Source: Balnearium lithotrophicum (lineage in GTDB: Bacteria > Aquificota > Aquificia > Desulfurobacteriales > Desulfurobacteriaceae). From it: DNA of 43,621 nucleotides. How positions within the stretch are numbered: the first letter of the stretch is position 1; each line of letters begins with the position of its first letter. The position numbers and the translations under genes are program-made. Shown one piece after another: positions 2,147 through 11,820 of this stretch. The DNA lies in assembly GCF_900182585.1 (NCBI RefSeq), contig NZ_FXTM01000020.1, positions 1 through 43,621 of the forward strand. Direction: 5' to 3'. The notes under the pieces were generated by a model that was not told the DNA's origin, made no database searches, and worked only from the letters and a program-made list of their open reading frames with translations.

Positions 2147-3703
2147 ATGAAGAAAGAATTAATTCTTATCTTCATTTTATTGTTAATTTCTAAGATTTCC
2201 ATGGCACTTGAAATGCCTAGTGCCACTGTTCCAATATTTCAGTATCAAAGGGAATATCAAATTCTTGAAAGAGCAAAGGAGATAGGATTAATAAAAAATT
2301 CAGATTTGTCATTTAAGCCATTGACAAGAGAACAGTTTGCAAGGGCAATAATAGAAATATACAACAATAGAGCAATTTCTCCTTCTTTAGCTAAGAAGTT
2401 TTTTGATGAACTTTATCCAGTTTTTAAGAGTTCTGTAAATTCTGTTCTAAAAGAGGAAAATGAAAACTACATTAAGCCTGTTAATAATATATATTTTTCT
2501 ACATTCTCCCTTTCAGGAATCAATAATTACAAACTTCCTTATTCTGAAGGTTACTCTTTAAAGAATGGACTAAACAGTAGGCTTGACATTTCTTCAGAAC
2601 TTAAGTTATCACGTTTTCTTATTTATTTAGAACCGGAGTACAGATTAGAAGATATCTTAAGACTCAACAGAGGATATATAACTTGGAAGTTAGACGGTCT
2701 TAATTTCCTATTTGGTAAGGATAACATTTGGTGGGGTAACGCTGAAAATGGGGATTTACTATTCACAAATAACGTACGCCCTTGGTTAATGTTTAAGGTA
2801 GAGAACGATTCCTATAAAAAACTTCCTTGGATTTTTAAATACTTAGGAGAATGGAAATTTTCCAACATAATTGCTCAATTAGAGAAAGAAAGGGTTAGAT
2901 CATATGCCCATATTTGGGGGATGAGACTTGCGTGGAAGCCTTTTAGGAACTTGGAGATAGCAGGAACAAGAGCAATTCAGTTTGGAGGAAAAGGAAGACC
3001 CAATTACCACTCTTTACATGATTTTTGGGAACTATTTACTGCCAATAATGAAAATGTTAGAGATACAAATCCTGAGGCACACAAGTACGATAATAATCAG
3101 CTTGCTTCTATTGATATTACTTACTATTTGAATTGGCTCAATAAGTTTAATTTCCAACCGTTTAAAGGTGGAAAATTCTACTTTGTTTATGGTGGAGATG
3201 ATGCATTGAAACCTGTTGGTCCAGGAGGATTACCTCTACCAACTGGAGCTGCCCACATTTTAGGTCTTTCTCTAACAACAGGATTAACCGATTTGAAGTT
3301 TGAATACACTGAAACGACGGATGGGAATAACGGAGCAATGTGGTACAGTCATCACATGTATCCCAACGGCTACACTTATCACGGGTTTATCATCGGAAAC
3401 AATATTGGAGGAGATTCAGAAAGTTATTTTTTTAAGGTTTCAAAGGACTTTAAGTTTGCAAATGTATCTTTTTCTTACAACTACGTAGAACATGGGGTTG
3501 ATAGAAAGTCTATTCAAGAAAAAGAACATATATATTCTTTAAAAGCTAATAAGCTCTTGAATTTAAAGAATTTTAGTTTCCTTAAAGTATTTTCCACACG
3601 TCTTTATACCTCATTTATCTATGACAATATTGAGCACTATGACTATACTTCAAATAATAAAAATGTTTACTTATTCTCTATTGGATTAAACTTGCAATTT
3701 TAA
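2147..3703 (+). CDS. Capsule assembly Wzi family outer-membrane protein
   Basis: A 518-residue protein with a clear Sec signal peptide (MKKELILIFILLLISKISMA). A short helical region follows, with a motif resembling S-layer homology repeats (residues about 45-75, LTREQFARAIIEIY). The rest is a long run of alternating hydrophobic/aromatic strands typical of an 18-stranded beta-barrel. It ends in a C-terminal Phe (SIGLNLQF), the classic signal for barrel insertion by BamA. Conserved Wzi-family features include the LFGKDNIWWGNAENGDLLFTN-type stretch near residues 186-206. Wzi anchors or assembles capsular polysaccharide at the cell surface. The start is well placed behind a GAGGGAG ribosome site. 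It lies 10 bases after the broken SLBB exporter, suggesting a surface-polysaccharide operon that is now damaged upstream. AT-rich composition and lack of GAGCTC sites set it apart from neighbours. Confidence 0.8.
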   Translation: MKKELILIFILLLISKISMALEMPSATVPIFQYQREYQILERAKEIGLIKNSDLSFKPLTREQFARAIIEIYNNRAISPSLAKKFFDELYPVFKSSVNSVLKEENENYIKPVNNIYFSTFSLSGINNYKLPYSEGYSLKNGLNSRLDISSELKLSRFLIYLEPEYRLEDILRLNRGYITWKLDGLNFLFGKDNIWWGNAENGDLLFTNNVRPWLMFKVENDSYKKLPWIFKYLGEWKFSNIIAQLEKERVRSYAHIWGMRLAWKPFRNLEIAGTRAIQFGGKGRPNYHSLHDFWELFTANNENVRDTNPEAHKYDNNQLASIDITYYLNWLNKFNFQPFKGGKFYFVYGGDDALKPVGPGGLPLPTGAAHILGLSLTTGLTDLKFEYTETTDGNNGAMWYSHHMYPNGYTYHGFIIGNNIGGDSESYFFKVSKDFKFANVSFSYNYVEHGVDRKSIQEKEHIYSLKANKLLNLKNFSFLKVFSTRLYTSFIYDNIEHYDYTSNNKNVYLFSIGLNLQF

Positions 3704-4053
3704 AAATCATCGTTTCCCTTGCTAAACTTTCCTTCTTTGAAAAGTTCCAAAGCCTCGTCTAAGAATTTAATACTTTGAGATAGCAGATAAACTTTTATTT
3801 CAAAATTTTCTAATTTACTAAGAGCTCCACTTCCTATATCCTTTACAAGAACAGCCTCAATTCCCTTTTCACTGAACAACTTTGCAATGTAATTTCCCCT
3901 TCCTCTCTGGAGCTCCAATGTAGGATTCTCTAAGATTTCTAAATTTCCAGTTTCTGTATCGAAAATTGCAAAGAGATTTGACTTACCAAAGTGAGGATTA
4001 ATTAGCTTTCTTCCATTAACCTCTTTTTCAAGAATGGGAATAGTTATCCTCAT
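3700..4053 (-). CDS. NifX/NifB-type iron-molybdenum cofactor-binding domain protein
   Basis: A stand-alone 117-residue protein of the dinitrogenase iron-molybdenum cofactor family (NifX, NafY, C-terminal NifB). Visible hallmarks are the N-terminal IPILE strand, the conserved N-P-H-F-G-K-S segment at residues 19-25, and the GRGNYIAKLFSEKGIEAVLVKDIGSGA block. In the last of these, family members usually have a cysteine or glycine loop. There are no cysteines. In organisms without nitrogenase such proteins are thought to bind or carry iron-sulfur species. It starts behind GGAGGACTA-ATG and is divergent from the CooS-like gene across 141 bases, so a role in handling that enzyme's unusual cluster is possible but is inference. 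Its stop overlaps the Wzi-like stop by 4 bases on the opposite strand. Confidence 0.75.
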   Translation of the reverse strand: MRITIPILEKEVNGRKLINPHFGKSNLFAIFDTETGNLEILENPTLELQRGRGNYIAKLFSEKGIEAVLVKDIGSGALSKLENFEIKVYLLSQSIKFLDEALELFKEGKFSKGNDDF

Positions 4054-4123: not shown

Positions 4124-4165
4124 TTGACTTAAATCAAGGGAATGGAATTTCAGCGTCTTTAAGAT
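4124..4165 (+). promoter_or_regulatory. FNR-type box and -10 element upstream of the CooS-like gene
   Basis: TTGAC (4124-4128), TTAA, ATCAA (4133-4137) forms an inverted repeat differing by one base from the FNR consensus TTGAT-N4-ATCAA. A good -10 hexamer, TAAGAT, lies at 4160-4165. If transcription starts 7 bases after it, at 4172, the centre of the box is at exactly -41.5. That is the class II activator position, where the protein replaces the -35 element; no good -35 sequence is visible. A Crp/Fnr gene with a matching recognition helix lies 2.3 kb downstream. Activation is inferred from geometry, not shown. Confidence 0.6.
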
Positions 4166-4194: not shown

Positions 4195-6156
4195 ATGTTT
4201 GGATTCTTTAAAAAGGGCAACGGTGGAAAGAAGGAAGAACAACAAAACTTCTGTGTTGAGTCTGACCTTTCTACAGGAGTTGGTTTAAAAATGCCCTCCA
4301 TCCATCAAAGTGTTAACTTCATGTATCAGAAGGTAAAGGAGGCAGGCCTATCAAACGTTGCTGACAGATTTGAGGCAATGGAAAAGGTTCGCTGTAAATT
4401 CTGTAAGGAAGGGGTTTCCTGTCAACTCTGTTCAATGGGACCCTGCCGTATAACGCCACAGACACCAAGGGGCGTTTGTGGAATCGATGCCCATGGAATT
4501 GTAATGAGGAACCTCCTCATTAAGGCCAATATGGGACTTGCAGCTTACACCTACCACTGCAGAGAAGCAGCCCTTACACTTCTTGAGACTGCAAGGGGAA
4601 ATACTGTTTACGAGATAAAGGACCCTTCAAAGATAGATGCTCTTGCTCAAATTTTAGGTGTTGATACTTCACTTCCGTTAGATTCAAAGGCAGAGAAGGT
4701 AGCCCAAAGGGTACTCGAAACACTATCAGAGAATAAAACTTCAACGTTCGTTGAAGCTCTCGCACCTGAAACGAGGAAAGAGGTATTTAAGAAGCTTGGA
4801 ATTACTCCAAAGGGACCGATGAATGAGCTCGTTGATTCCGTTACTCGTTCGATGACAAACATAGACGGTGACTACATAACCTTAGCCCTCGCTGCACTGA
4901 GAAACGGTGTTGCTTCAGCCTTTGGTAGCTTAGTTCCTCTGGAGATGATTCAAGACGCTCTCTATGGAACTCCATCTCCCCATGAGTGTACTGTTGACTT
5001 TGGAGTTCTTGACCCGGACTACGTAAACATACTTCCAAACGGTCACGAACCCTTTGTTGGAATGGCTCTTGTTAAACTCGCTAAGGATGAAAAGTTTCAA
5101 AAAATGGCAAGGGAAGCTGGAGCAAAAGGGTTAAAGATTGTTGGTTCCATTGAAACTGGTCAGGAGATGATGGCTCGCCTTGAATGTGATGACGTCTTTG
5201 CAGGACTTACTTCCAACTGGATTTCTATTGAGTACTTCCTCTCAACCGGTGCTGTTGATGCCTTTGTTATGGATATGAACTGCTCACTTGCAAACCTAAA
5301 AGAATATGCAGATAAGTACAACTTTAAGCTAATTGCCGTTTCAAACATAATAGGCGTTCCAGGTTCAATAAGACTTGAGTATGAACCTGGCAATGAGTCA
5401 AAGGTTGCAGAGGAAATTATTAAATTGGCCATTGAGAACTTTAAAGAGAGGAGGAACAAGCAAAAGGCCGATGTTTCCAAGTTTAAACAGAAAGCCCTTG
5501 TAGGATTTTCGGCTGAAGCGATTGTTAATGCCCTTGGAGGAAGTTTAGACCCTCTACTTGAAGTTATCAAAAGCGGTGACATTAAGGGAATAGCAGCCCT
5601 TGTTAACTGTACATCCCTTGGAAACGGACCTCAGGACAGTGTGACCGTTCAGATTGCTAAGGAACTTATTAAGAGGGATATTCTGGTCATAGGGGCAGGT
5701 TGCGGAAATGCCGGTATGCAACAGGAAGGATTGGAAACCCTTGAGGCAGCAGAAAAGTTTGCTGGCCCTAAACTTGCAGGGGTCTGTAAGGCATTGGGAA
5801 TTCCTCCTGTCCTCTCATTTGGAACCTGTACGGACACGGGAAGAATTATTATGACTGCTGTTGCCATAGCCAATGCCTTAGGAGTTGACCCTTCACAGCT
5901 TCCTGCAGTTGTTACTGCTCCTGAGTACATGGAACAAAAGGCCGTAATTGATGGATTCTCAGCCGTTGCAATGGGATTCTACACACACGTTTCCCCCGTT
6001 CCTCCGGTTACAGGGTCAGACAAAGTTGTTAAACTACTAACAGAGGAAGTTGAAGGCCTTACAGGTGGAAAGATAGCCGTAGGAGACGACCCTGTTGAAG
6101 CAGCTAAGGCAATGGAAGAGCACATCATGAAGAAGAGAGAACTTTTAGGTATATAG
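4195..6156 (+). CDS. cooS: CO-dehydrogenase-scaffold protein with hybrid-cluster-type active-site ligands (CooS-like)
   Basis: A 653-residue member of the CODH/hybrid cluster protein superfamily, full length for CooS. The N-terminal cysteine motif is C67-x2-C70-x5-C76-x2-C79-x4-C84-x10-C95. C76, C79, C84 and C95 match the B-cluster. C67/C70 resemble the CX2C D-cluster type known as [2Fe-2S] in Desulfovibrio CODH. By eye alignment to Carboxydothermus CODH-II, the C-cluster ligands are H284, C363, C472, C503 and C545, but the position of Cys295 is Glu320 (GSIETGQE). The segment before the catalytic Lys reads M-E580-Q-K582-A-V, as in Hcp. H, E, C, C, C, C, E is exactly the Hcp hybrid-cluster set. 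A Ni-free Fe-S-O cluster acting on hydroxylamine or NO is therefore more likely than CO oxidation, as reported for the deviant CooS-V. No CooF, CooC or acetyl-CoA synthase genes are nearby. The ATG follows a strong AGGAGG site. Confidence 0.85.
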   Translation: MFGFFKKGNGGKKEEQQNFCVESDLSTGVGLKMPSIHQSVNFMYQKVKEAGLSNVADRFEAMEKVRCKFCKEGVSCQLCSMGPCRITPQTPRGVCGIDAHGIVMRNLLIKANMGLAAYTYHCREAALTLLETARGNTVYEIKDPSKIDALAQILGVDTSLPLDSKAEKVAQRVLETLSENKTSTFVEALAPETRKEVFKKLGITPKGPMNELVDSVTRSMTNIDGDYITLALAALRNGVASAFGSLVPLEMIQDALYGTPSPHECTVDFGVLDPDYVNILPNGHEPFVGMALVKLAKDEKFQKMAREAGAKGLKIVGSIETGQEMMARLECDDVFAGLTSNWISIEYFLSTGAVDAFVMDMNCSLANLKEYADKYNFKLIAVSNIIGVPGSIRLEYEPGNESKVAEEIIKLAIENFKERRNKQKADVSKFKQKALVGFSAEAIVNALGGSLDPLLEVIKSGDIKGIAALVNCTSLGNGPQDSVTVQIAKELIKRDILVIGAGCGNAGMQQEGLETLEAAEKFAGPKLAGVCKALGIPPVLSFGTCTDTGRIIMTAVAIANALGVDPSQLPAVVTAPEYMEQKAVIDGFSAVAMGFYTHVSPVPPVTGSDKVVKLLTEEVEGLTGGKIAVGDDPVEAAKAMEEHIMKKRELLGI

Positions 6157-6163
6157 AGTTTTG

Positions 6164-6191
6164 CCCTCCCTTTGGGAGGGTTCAATTTCTT
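6164..6191 (+). terminator. Hairpin after the CooS-like gene
   Basis: CCCTCCC (6164-6170), loop TTT, GGGAGGG (6174-6180) is a perfect 7-bp GC-rich stem, starting 7 bases after the stop. It is followed by TTCAATTTCTT, a weak U-rich tail. It probably ends or attenuates transcription between the CooS-like gene and the ygbA-like gene, allowing partial readthrough. Confidence 0.6.
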
Positions 6192-6207
6192 ATATAGGAG
6201 AGCTCTA

Positions 6208-6540
6208 TTGGGAGCCATTGAAAGGGAAAAAGAGACTATAAGAAAGATGGTTGAAATCTACTGTTGGAAGAAGCACAAAAGGAAAAGAGGGGAGCTCTGT
6301 CCTGAATGTGAAAAACTCCTACTCTATGCATTCAAGAGGTTAGAGTTATGTCCTTTTGGAGAAGATAAACCTACTTGCAAAAAGTGCCCCGTTCACTGCT
6401 ACCTGCCTGAATATAGAGAAAAAATAAAACAAGTTATGAGATTTAGCGGTCCAAGACTTTTAATTTACAGTCCCTTAGACTGGATTGTCCACGAATTTAA
6501 GGAAAAAGTATTTATGAAGCTAAATCCCTCAAACCGTTAA
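6208..6540 (+). CDS. YgbA-type nitrosative-stress (nitrous oxide-stimulated promoter) family protein
   Basis: A 110-residue, cysteine-rich cytoplasmic protein of the family named for its NO-responsive promoter (Pfam YgbA_NO). Family features seen are the KRG-E-L-C31-x2-C34 motif, Y40-A-x-x-R-L-x-x-C48-P-F-G, C57-x2-C60-x3-C64-Y, and the closing M-R-x-S-G-P-R-L-L-x-x-x-P block. The cysteine spacing suggests an iron-sulfur or zinc site. In enterobacteria the gene belongs to NO-defence regulons; its biochemistry is not settled. I chose the TTG at 6208, behind AGGAGAG, over the upstream in-frame TTG at 6172, because 6172 lies inside the terminator hairpin. It follows the CooS-like gene by 51 bases, and its 3' end overlaps the Crp/Fnr gene tail-to-tail by 29 bases. 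Confidence 0.8.
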   Translation: MGAIEREKETIRKMVEIYCWKKHKRKRGELCPECEKLLLYAFKRLELCPFGEDKPTCKKCPVHCYLPEYREKIKQVMRFSGPRLLIYSPLDWIVHEFKEKVFMKLNPSNR

Positions 6541-7156
6541 GATTTTTAATTAAAATCCTTCCTCCTTCCTTTTCAATTAAACCTAACTTTTTAAGTTTTG
6601 AAAGCATTCTCGAAACTGTTTCCTTAGTGAGCCCCAACTCCATCGCAGCTATGCCTGTACTGAAGTTTATCTCCTCCCCTTCATTTTCATACTTCCTTAA
6701 TATGTAGGAGGAAACCTTTGAAAGAGCTGTTTTAAGGGAAAGACTTTCTATAACGTTAGTTAAGTGGATTAGTCTTTGAGCCATTACGGATAAGAGTTTC
6801 ATTCCAATTTCAGGGTCGTTTCTTATTATTTCTAAAAACTCCTTCCTTGGTATGAGTAATATTTCAGAATCTTCAATCGTCTCTGCCCAAGCAGGAAAGT
6901 TCGTTCCTGTAAAGCTTGCAGCCTCTCCAAAAAGATTTGGTTTATCAAAAATCCTTATTATCTGTTCCTTTCCCTTTGAAGTTTTAAATACCTTCACAGC
7001 TCCACTTTTAAGAATGAAGAAAAACTCGGCTCTATCGTAAGGGGAAAAGAGGGTCTTTCCTTTGTCATACTTTTTTATAGTTGAAATCTTCTTTATGCTC
7101 TCTATCTGATGTTCAGTTAACTCCTTAAAAAGAGGAATTTTTTTTAGAAACTCCAC
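6512..7156 (-). CDS. Crp/Fnr family transcriptional regulator without cysteines
   Basis: A 214-residue regulator with an N-terminal cyclic-nucleotide-binding-type beta-roll (about residues 8-115), a long dimerisation helix (116-145) and a C-terminal winged helix-turn-helix (168-190). The recognition helix carries E179-x2-S182-R183, the combination that reads TTGA half-sites in FNR, which fits the box at 4124-4137. There is no cysteine anywhere, so an FNR-type oxygen-sensing iron-sulfur cluster is excluded. A haem- or ligand-sensing mode, as in Dnr, HcpR or CooA relatives, is possible but unproven. It starts at GTG behind GAGGAGG, 16 bases after ispD, as the last gene of the long minus-strand series, while its convergent neighbours are the YgbA and CooS-like genes. 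I infer that it controls them. Confidence 0.85.
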   Translation of the reverse strand: MEFLKKIPLFKELTEHQIESIKKISTIKKYDKGKTLFSPYDRAEFFFILKSGAVKVFKTSKGKEQIIRIFDKPNLFGEAASFTGTNFPAWAETIEDSEILLIPRKEFLEIIRNDPEIGMKLLSVMAQRLIHLTNVIESLSLKTALSKVSSYILRKYENEGEEINFSTGIAAMELGLTKETVSRMLSKLKKLGLIEKEGGRILIKNLNGLRDLAS

Positions 7157-10219: not shown

Positions 10220-11500
10220 TTATTTATCTTTAAAAACAATTTTACCATTATAAATCGTTATTTTCACTCTCCCCCTTAGTCTTTTATTCAGAAACGGTGT
10301 ATTGCAGCTTTTGGATTTTATCTCCTCCTTGGTTAGAACAAACTCCTCTTCAGGGTCAAAAACAGTTACGTTTGCCCTTGAGCCGGGCTTTAAGCTTCCT
10401 ATGTCCCTCTTCCCTATAATTCTTGAGGGATTCGTTGACAGTTTCTCTATCATCTGACTCAAAGTTAGATATCCCTCTCTAACGAGGTTTAGGGATAAAG
10501 GAAGGGCAGTTTGAAGTCCTATTATTCCAAAGGGAGCTCTGCAGAACTCAACCAACTTCTCATCCTCAGAGTGAGGAGCGTGGTCTGTGGCAATTGAATC
10601 AGCAACTCCCTTTTTAAGGGCAATTCTGCAGGCTTCGACGTGGTCCTTGGTTCTTAAAGGAGGACACATCTTTGCATTTGTATTGAATCCCTCCACTGCA
10701 TCCTCAGTTAGCGTAAAGTGGTGGGGAGTTATTTCACAGGTTACTCTAACTCCATCCCCCTTAGCTTCCTCAATTATTTTCAGAGCTCCCTTACTTGAAA
10801 CGTGGCAAACATGAATGTGGGCTCCCGTTAACTTTGCAATTAGAATATCCCTCATCGTTCCTATGTCCTCAGCCTCTGGAGGCATTCCGGGAATTCCTAA
10901 CCTTGTAGAGAGTGGCCCCTCGTTCATGTGGCCGCCGGCTGATAGGGTCTTATCCTCTGAGTGGGTAAAAACGGGAATTCCCAAACTCCTTGCATAGTCC
11001 ATGGCATTTCTCAAAACCCTACTGTCCCTCGGTGACTCTCCATCGTCAGAAATTGCAACGATACCTGCTTTCACCATCAGTCCAATTTCCGCTAACTCCT
11101 CCCCTTTGAGACCCTTTGTAATAGCACCTATTGGAAAGACGTCACATAAACCTACTTCCTTTCCCCTATCCACAATGTACTTTGTCACCGATGGATTGTC
11201 GTTAACAGGGTCTGTATTTGCCATACAGCAAACAGATGTAAAACCTCCTGCAACGGCAGCTTGGGAACCTGTTTCAATGTCCTCCTTCCACTCCTGTCCC
11301 GGCTCCCTGAGGTGAGTATGGAGATCTATAAATCCTGGAGAAACGATAAGTCCTGAAACATCAATGACCTTTGTTGCTTCTACCCTATCTATCTTTTTTT
11401 CAACTTTTACTACTCTATTTCCTTCAATTAGAACATCATACGTTCCATCCAAGTTTTGAGATGGGTCTACGACTCTTCCACCCTTAAGAAGAACTCTCAT
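10220..11500 (-). CDS. pyrC: Dihydroorotase
   Basis: Dihydroorotase closes carbamoyl-aspartate to dihydroorotate in pyrimidine synthesis. The 426-residue class I-type protein has the metal motif D-L-H-T-H-L-R-E (near residue 59), the SDDG block, H-S-E-D, H-V-C-H-V-S-S-K, and the catalytic A-T-D-H-A-P-H-S motif. I chose the ATG at 11500, behind AGGAGAGG, rather than an upstream GTG at 11521. The chosen start overlaps the cytochrome stop as ATGA. In Aquifex, PyrC and PyrB assemble into one complex, and the neighbouring pyrB fits that. The intervening cytochrome gene is unusual. Confidence 0.93.
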   Translation of the reverse strand: MRVLLKGGRVVDPSQNLDGTYDVLIEGNRVVKVEKKIDRVEATKVIDVSGLIVSPGFIDLHTHLREPGQEWKEDIETGSQAAVAGGFTSVCCMANTDPVNDNPSVTKYIVDRGKEVGLCDVFPIGAITKGLKGEELAEIGLMVKAGIVAISDDGESPRDSRVLRNAMDYARSLGIPVFTHSEDKTLSAGGHMNEGPLSTRLGIPGMPPEAEDIGTMRDILIAKLTGAHIHVCHVSSKGALKIIEEAKGDGVRVTCEITPHHFTLTEDAVEGFNTNAKMCPPLRTKDHVEACRIALKKGVADSIATDHAPHSEDEKLVEFCRAPFGIIGLQTALPLSLNLVREGYLTLSQMIEKLSTNPSRIIGKRDIGSLKPGSRANVTVFDPEEEFVLTKEEIKSKSCNTPFLNKRLRGRVKITIYNGKIVFKDK

Positions 11501-11820
11501 TTCCTCTCCTGTTTGTGGCACTTTGTACAGTTTTTAGGATCTTTGGCATCAAAGGCCTTAACTCCGTTATGACAGACACCACAGAATTTACCGTTCCAGA
11601 TATCCTGCATTGTAAACTTATCGCCTCCAAACTTTCTCTTAAAAATCTTTGGATGGCAGTATGAGCAGTGTTGCTTCTTTACCTTTACGTGGTAAACGTG
11701 ACTGAAAACAACGGGGCCGTTTTTGGTTTTAAATACCAAATCCCTATTTAAAACACCTCCTTTAAAACAACCAAAGAGGAGCAAACCAGTTAGTAAGCTT
11801 AAAGCCAAGTATCTCTTCAT
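11497..11820 (-). CDS. Triheme c-type cytochrome lipoprotein
   Basis: A 107-residue secreted haem protein. A signal peptide ends in a lipobox-like L-L-F-G-C18, so it is predicted to be lipid-anchored. Three CXXCH haem sites follow: C52-H56, C80-H84 and C98-H102. H41, H44 and H51 are available as distal ligands, and the FSHVYHV pattern resembles c7/c3-type triheme domains. A periplasmic electron-carrier role is expected; the partner is unknown. The start at 11820 has GGAGG seven bases upstream; an upstream GTG extension lacks sense because it would precede the signal peptide. Both ends overlap neighbours by 4 bases (pyrB stop and pyrC start), so it is embedded in the pyrimidine operon. The divergent ccsA/ResB-like genes could supply haem attachment. 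Confidence 0.85.
   Translation of the reverse strand: MKRYLALSLLTGLLLFGCFKGGVLNRDLVFKTKNGPVVFSHVYHVKVKKQHCSYCHPKIFKRKFGGDKFTMQDIWNGKFCGVCHNGVKAFDAKDPKNCTKCHKQERK

Follow-up and report, generated by a model that had tools for sequence, protein, structure and literature searches.

What does a protein do that is annotated as a Ni-containing CO dehydrogenase (CODH) and carries the cluster ligands of the hybrid cluster protein (HCP)? This question was raised by a 653-residue open reading frame at positions 4195–6156 (+), preceded by a good ribosome-binding site, in a 43,621-nucleotide stretch of Balnearium lithotrophicum DNA (the window). A preliminary description, made from the sequence alone, had given the coordinates and length of the frame correctly and had expected it to be annotated as a Ni-CODH but not to oxidise CO. 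The annotation was as predicted: the protein scored 786 bits against the NCBIfam model TIGR01702 (CO dehydrogenase) and 50 bits against the hydroxylamine reductase model TIGR01703, far from the 360.8-bit cut-off of the HCP family, to which it does not belong by sequence. Pfam identified one Prismane domain.

A CODH scaffold with hybrid-cluster ligands

The MAFFT alignment placed H284, E320, C363, C472, C503, C545 and E580-Q581-K582 exactly where the preliminary description had put them by eye. These positions correspond to H259, E295, C338, C449, C480, C521 and E556 of CooS-V from Carboxydothermus hydrogenoformans. Through the CooS-V/HCP equivalences of PMC9311411, they supply the His, two Glu and four Cys of the HCP hybrid cluster, which supports the view that an HCP-type ligand set sits in a CODH scaffold. 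The Cys295 of Ni,Fe-CO dehydrogenases is absent, as Glu320 stands in its place, and an active Ni-CODH was rejected. In the same alignment, CODH-IV shows Cys where the window protein has E320, and H-E-K in place of its E580-Q581-K582.

The protein also carries the marks of structural group D-1, defined by Inoue et al. in 2019 (PMC6344411). The other five C-cluster ligands are kept, the catalytic Lys ends an EQK motif, with Glu two positions ahead of it, Tyr replaces the acid-base His93 (AYTYHCR, Y118, against AHVDHAY), and the D-cluster is of type III (Gly41 to Cys), with C70 where CODH-IV has Gly. All nine ligand and motif residues were identical in every complete Desulfurobacteriaceae orthologue, so the pattern in the window is not a chance one. 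Two further features, a cysteine (Cys122) adjoining the TYH motif and an extended N-terminus (residues 1–34) that contains another Cys, occurred only in some of the Desulfurobacteriaceae orthologues.

The best solved relative was CooS-V of C. hydrogenoformans (PDB 7b7q; 669 bits, 51% identity), with the best true CODH at 426 bits. An AlphaFold model built from 12 D-1 relatives, of moderate confidence (pLDDT 72.7), also had CooS-V as its best structural match (TM 0.88, 50% identity). In the phylogenetic tree, a branch with 100/99 support parted all D-1 rows from the CODH rows; the single HCP row sat on an extremely long branch of unsure placement, so that it carries no conclusion about where HCP arose. 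A D-1 gene from a contig labelled as a Gammaproteobacteria MAG (L011) nested among those of the Aquificota and is probably misbinned.

In the CooS-V structure, Glu295 and Glu556 are named as cluster ligands (Jeoung et al. 2022, PMC9311411). According to the same study, the recombinant protein contains no nickel and has no CO activity, NO reduction was not detected, and hydroxylamine is reduced very slowly (kcat 0.13 s-1). Its cluster potentials lie ~300 mV below those of HCP, and the cluster is redox-morphing, reduction opening the [4Fe-3S] cluster. The preliminary description had held that the window protein surpasses CooS-V by having the second HCP glutamate. This does not stand, as CooS-V itself has Glu556 (YMEQKA), and the full set of HCP catalytic-site residues, second Glu included, had been reported for group D-1 in 2019 (PMC6344411); a window protein more HCP-like than CooS-V was rejected. 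By its sequence, the window protein is an ordinary D-1/CooS-V orthologue. It would form a CODH-fold homodimer, with an active site that would hold an Fe-S-O hybrid cluster rather than a Ni-Fe C-cluster, given ligands identical to those of Carboxydothermus CooS-V. It does not appear to be a CO dehydrogenase and is expected not to oxidise CO. The chemistry of CooS-V is already known, and the window protein alone adds one more member.

This assignment bears on carbon fixation in Thermovibrio ammonificans, for which a 'type V CodH' has been proposed to carry out the CO2-to-CO step of a partial reductive acetyl-CoA pathway (PMC5441870). That protein was detected in the proteome from nitrate-reducing growth, and its expression, together with the NCBIfam annotation of the window protein as CODH, speaks for a working CO2-reducing enzyme. 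However, in the T. ammonificans orthologue (L037) Glu occupies the Cys295 position and the EQK motif is present, exactly as in CooS-V, and the same Glu is present in every complete relative. Judged from the alignment, the reported conservation of its NiFeS ligands breaks down at the Cys295 position, which contradicts the published basis for the CO2-to-CO step. CooS-V, with the same ligands, lacks nickel and CO activity, and the C295E variant of CODH-II is reported to be Ni-deficient and inactive with CO. A CO2-reducing CODH feeding this pathway is thus very improbable.

Distribution of prismane-family proteins

The Desulfurobacteriaceae are marine-vent organisms, and the named relatives were MAGs of this family. 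A prismane-family match was present in all 22 Desulfurobacteriaceae genomes, which are not independent samples, and CooS-V was the only such protein in 20 of them. The other two (G008 and G014) contained, beside CooS-V, a true CODH that has Cys at position 295 and a full cysteine set (L019 and L018, respectively). No HCP was found in the 22 genomes by a search that detected E. coli Hcp as a control. The view that genes of the CooS-V type are found only alongside other CODHs does not apply to this family.

Across 136 Aquificota genomes, the ygbA gene that neighbours cooS-V in the window was found in 27, namely the 22 Desulfurobacteriaceae (f1) and five of family f5, and in none outside these two families. 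Of the five ygbA-bearing f5 genomes, the four that were compared, all but G133, have a D-1 CooS-V. The one sister genome with an HCP (G135) lacks ygbA, and the other aligned Aquificota prismane proteins were of the Cys-type variant. Among these, proteins of families f3 and f4 (L113–L116, L121:6514-8397 and L123:5100-6995) retain every C-cluster cysteine, but the E-x-K of CODHs is N-N-D in them, with Asp instead of the catalytic Lys563, and their His93 region contains THD. From their sequences, they look like an undescribed CODH variant.

The cooS-V–ygbA operon, its promoter box and its proposed regulator

The preliminary description had also pointed to an NO-stress neighbour, and this was found immediately downstream as a ygbA-family gene (PF11756, E 3e-37) at 6172–6540 (+), the listed TTG start of which is uncertain. 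The E. coli ygbA is a member of the NsrR regulon, which responds to NO and also includes hcp-hcr (PMC5320621). The neighbour is weightier than could be told from the window alone: ygbA follows cooS-V in the same direction in 22 of 22 Desulfurobacteriaceae genomes, with a conserved HcpR-type box and a regulator, and this block is kept where synteny beyond it is lost. Elsewhere, the stretches examined around readable D-1 genes of other Aquificota and of one Clostridia contig contained no homologues of ygbA or of the other window neighbours.

Upstream and divergent lies a small NifX-like protein with a Nitro_FeMo-Co domain (3700–4053, −), found before cooS-V in the 19 loci that reach that far, and possibly a cluster carrier. 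In T. ammonificans and G009, the NifX-like gene is followed by one for a cysteine-rich protein that resembles DUF1847 by eye, and the two may form a cluster-handling pair.

The box, TTGACTTAAATCAA at 4124–4137 (+), precedes cooS-V and is conserved in all 19 other readable loci, each with a perfect TTGAY-N4-RTCAA palindrome upstream of the operon. In 283 kb of these loci, the pattern matched 20 times, and 19 of the matches were at the promoter of the cooS-V operon, with ~1.5 expected in all as estimated from shuffles of the window. Where a small cupin-like gene is inserted before cooS-V (in G009 and, by box position, in G012), the box lies further upstream. A −10-like hexamer, TAAGAT, is located at 4160–4165 (+), 29.5 bp from the box centre. 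In most Desulfurobacteriaceae promoters, a TATAAT-like hexamer likewise lies at an offset of 36 bases, counted from the start of the box to that of the hexamer, which is class II activator spacing (site centred at −41.5); no other offset gave a mean hexamer match as high as the 3.8 of 6 found there.

The box fits the HcpR consensus of the hcp/frdX regulon, wyTTGACnnnnGTCAArw (Rodionov et al. 2005, PMC1274295). Next to ygbA, at 6512–7156 (−), is the proposed activator of the operon, a Crp/Fnr-family protein with no cysteines and an FNR-like recognition helix (LTKETVSR; LT[KV]ETVSR across relatives). A TTGAC-N4-GTCAA-type box before a hybrid-cluster gene and a Crp/Fnr regulator without the FNR cysteines are the marks of an HcpR-type regulon, and both were found here. 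The regulator gene runs against ygbA in most genera but with it in genus g3, and the two thus stay neighbours despite the change of orientation. It encodes the only HTH_Crp_2 protein above the cut-off in the genomes of the window organism and T. ammonificans, and its closest named NO-related structure was DNR. HcpR1 is reported to have Ser or Pro at recognition-helix position 180; the regulator has Lys there, or Val in genus g3, and it is therefore not filed as HcpR1 by descent.

A second perfect box precedes a dicluster ferredoxin gene in 10 of the 17 genomes that could be evaluated, with no clear −10 spacing; this ferredoxin together with cooS-V recalls the hcp and frdX pair. Beyond these two genes, perfect matches in the genome-wide search were mostly intragenic and near the control count in genome G000, so the regulon looks very small.

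A proposed role in nitrosative-stress defence and its precedents

Taken together, CooS-V probably defends against reactive nitrogen rather than serving carbon fixation. We propose, with a probability of roughly 70%, that a CooS-V-type Fe-S-O enzyme in an operon with ygbA, activated in response to NO by its Crp/Fnr neighbour, reduces hydroxylamine or NO in Hcp's place. NO or a derivative would be sensed by the cysteine-free Crp/Fnr protein, possibly through heme as in HcpR-type regulons, and this protein would activate cooS-V–ygbA through the TTGAY-N4-RTCAA box at the class II position. The [4Fe-3S] cluster of CooS-V, which would open on reduction like that of the Carboxydothermus enzyme, would then pass electrons to hydroxylamine or NO and regain them from a low-potential ferredoxin. 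CooS-V would thereby take the place of Hcp in the HcpR-type nitrosative-stress operon of other anaerobes. The universal presence of cooS-V, the lack of HCP, the invariable ygbA, the restriction of ygbA among Aquificota to the two families with D-1 CooS-V, the HcpR-like box with its class II spacing, the sole regulator next door, the box at the dicluster ferredoxin gene and the detection of T. ammonificans CodH under nitrate-reducing growth speak for this role. The D-1 loci elsewhere without ygbA, the regulator without the HcpR1 Ser/Pro, the ferredoxin box without clear −10 spacing, the low cluster potentials of Carboxydothermus CooS-V and the non-independence of the genomes speak against it. 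Its main weakness is the low activity of Carboxydothermus CooS-V, for which NO reduction was not detected.

The same slow turnover and redox-morphing cluster would suit a redox or NO sensor, or a chaperone, with no catalytic role, as was suggested for clade D in a 2026 genomic-context study that linked this clade to regulators. However, the operon already has a sensor-type regulator of its own, and all cluster ligands are kept in CooS-V, which make a non-catalytic role improbable.

Alternatively, CooS-V could be the hydroxylamine reductase of nitrate ammonification, with Nap producing nitrite, an octaheme HAO producing hydroxylamine and CooS-V producing ammonium. This is consistent with the absence of NrfA above the cut-off in the 22 Desulfurobacteriaceae genomes, with an 8-heme HAO-family gene that closely precedes nap in T. 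ammonificans and relatives, with the detection of T. ammonificans CodH under nitrate growth, and with a TTGAC-N4-GTCAA site in the Nautilia har promoter (PMC2628731). Yet the operon and its box are no less constant in genus g3 and G008, where a full-length NapA is lacking, so detoxification would be the simpler role for all members to share. CooS-V turns over slowly, T. ammonificans has a putative NirA, and relatives of the HAO family may themselves reach ammonium. The closest solved relative of the nap-adjacent cytochrome was 4qo5, an Ignicoccus enzyme that reduces nitrite and hydroxylamine. A dedicated ammonification step is on balance unlikely, if less so than the sensor. In assembly G000, the nap-adjacent octaheme HAO-family gene is frame-broken (L125, G000:C2:36000-54000, at ~11400–11650, − strand); it is intact in T. 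ammonificans and other relatives, and the break is either an assembly error or a pseudogene.

The defence reading can be extended, tentatively, to a cytoplasmic hydroxylamine/NO reductase that replaces Hcp and completes a Nap and octaheme-HAO route of ammonification or detoxification under one NO-sensing regulator, in which case the reported carbon-fixing CODH would be a nitrogen enzyme. CooS-V-type proteins have a solved structure without a known physiological role, and a culturable vent family with CooS-V as its usual only prismane protein, under an NO-type switch, offers a clean test system.

What is new is the surroundings of CooS-V, here the sole hybrid-cluster enzyme, fixed with ygbA and under a dedicated HcpR-like switch. 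This combination was not found in the literature consulted, and the 2026 genomic-context study does not include ygbA. The window protein shares the seven cluster ligands, the EQK motif and the extra D-cluster Cys with Carboxydothermus CooS-V (7b7q), which differs in occurring beside four CODHs and an HCP, whereas in the Desulfurobacteriaceae cooS-V is usually the sole family member and is accompanied by ygbA and the regulator. With group D-1 (PMC6344411), it shares the replacement of the first C-cluster Cys by Glu and of the acid-base His by Tyr, the retained Lys, the type III D-cluster and the HCP-like Glu, but the contexts reported for that group are COG1063 and HypAB and include neither ygbA nor a TTGAC box. 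Nautilia profundicola, for which a route through Nap, reverse HAO and HCP has been proposed (PMC2628731), likewise has Nap and an octaheme HAO-family cytochrome, no NrfA, and a TTGAC-N4-GTCAA promoter site at the gene of its hybrid-cluster enzyme; in the Desulfurobacteriaceae, CooS-V stands instead of HCP and is kept even where full-length NapA is missing. Finally, the HcpR-Hcp-FrdX regulon (PMC1274295) has in common with this locus a Crp/Fnr regulator without the FNR cysteines, the TTGAC-N4-GTCAA box, and a hybrid-cluster enzyme together with a ferredoxin gene, but here that enzyme is CooS-V, not Hcp, and the regulator has Lys or Val at the specificity position.
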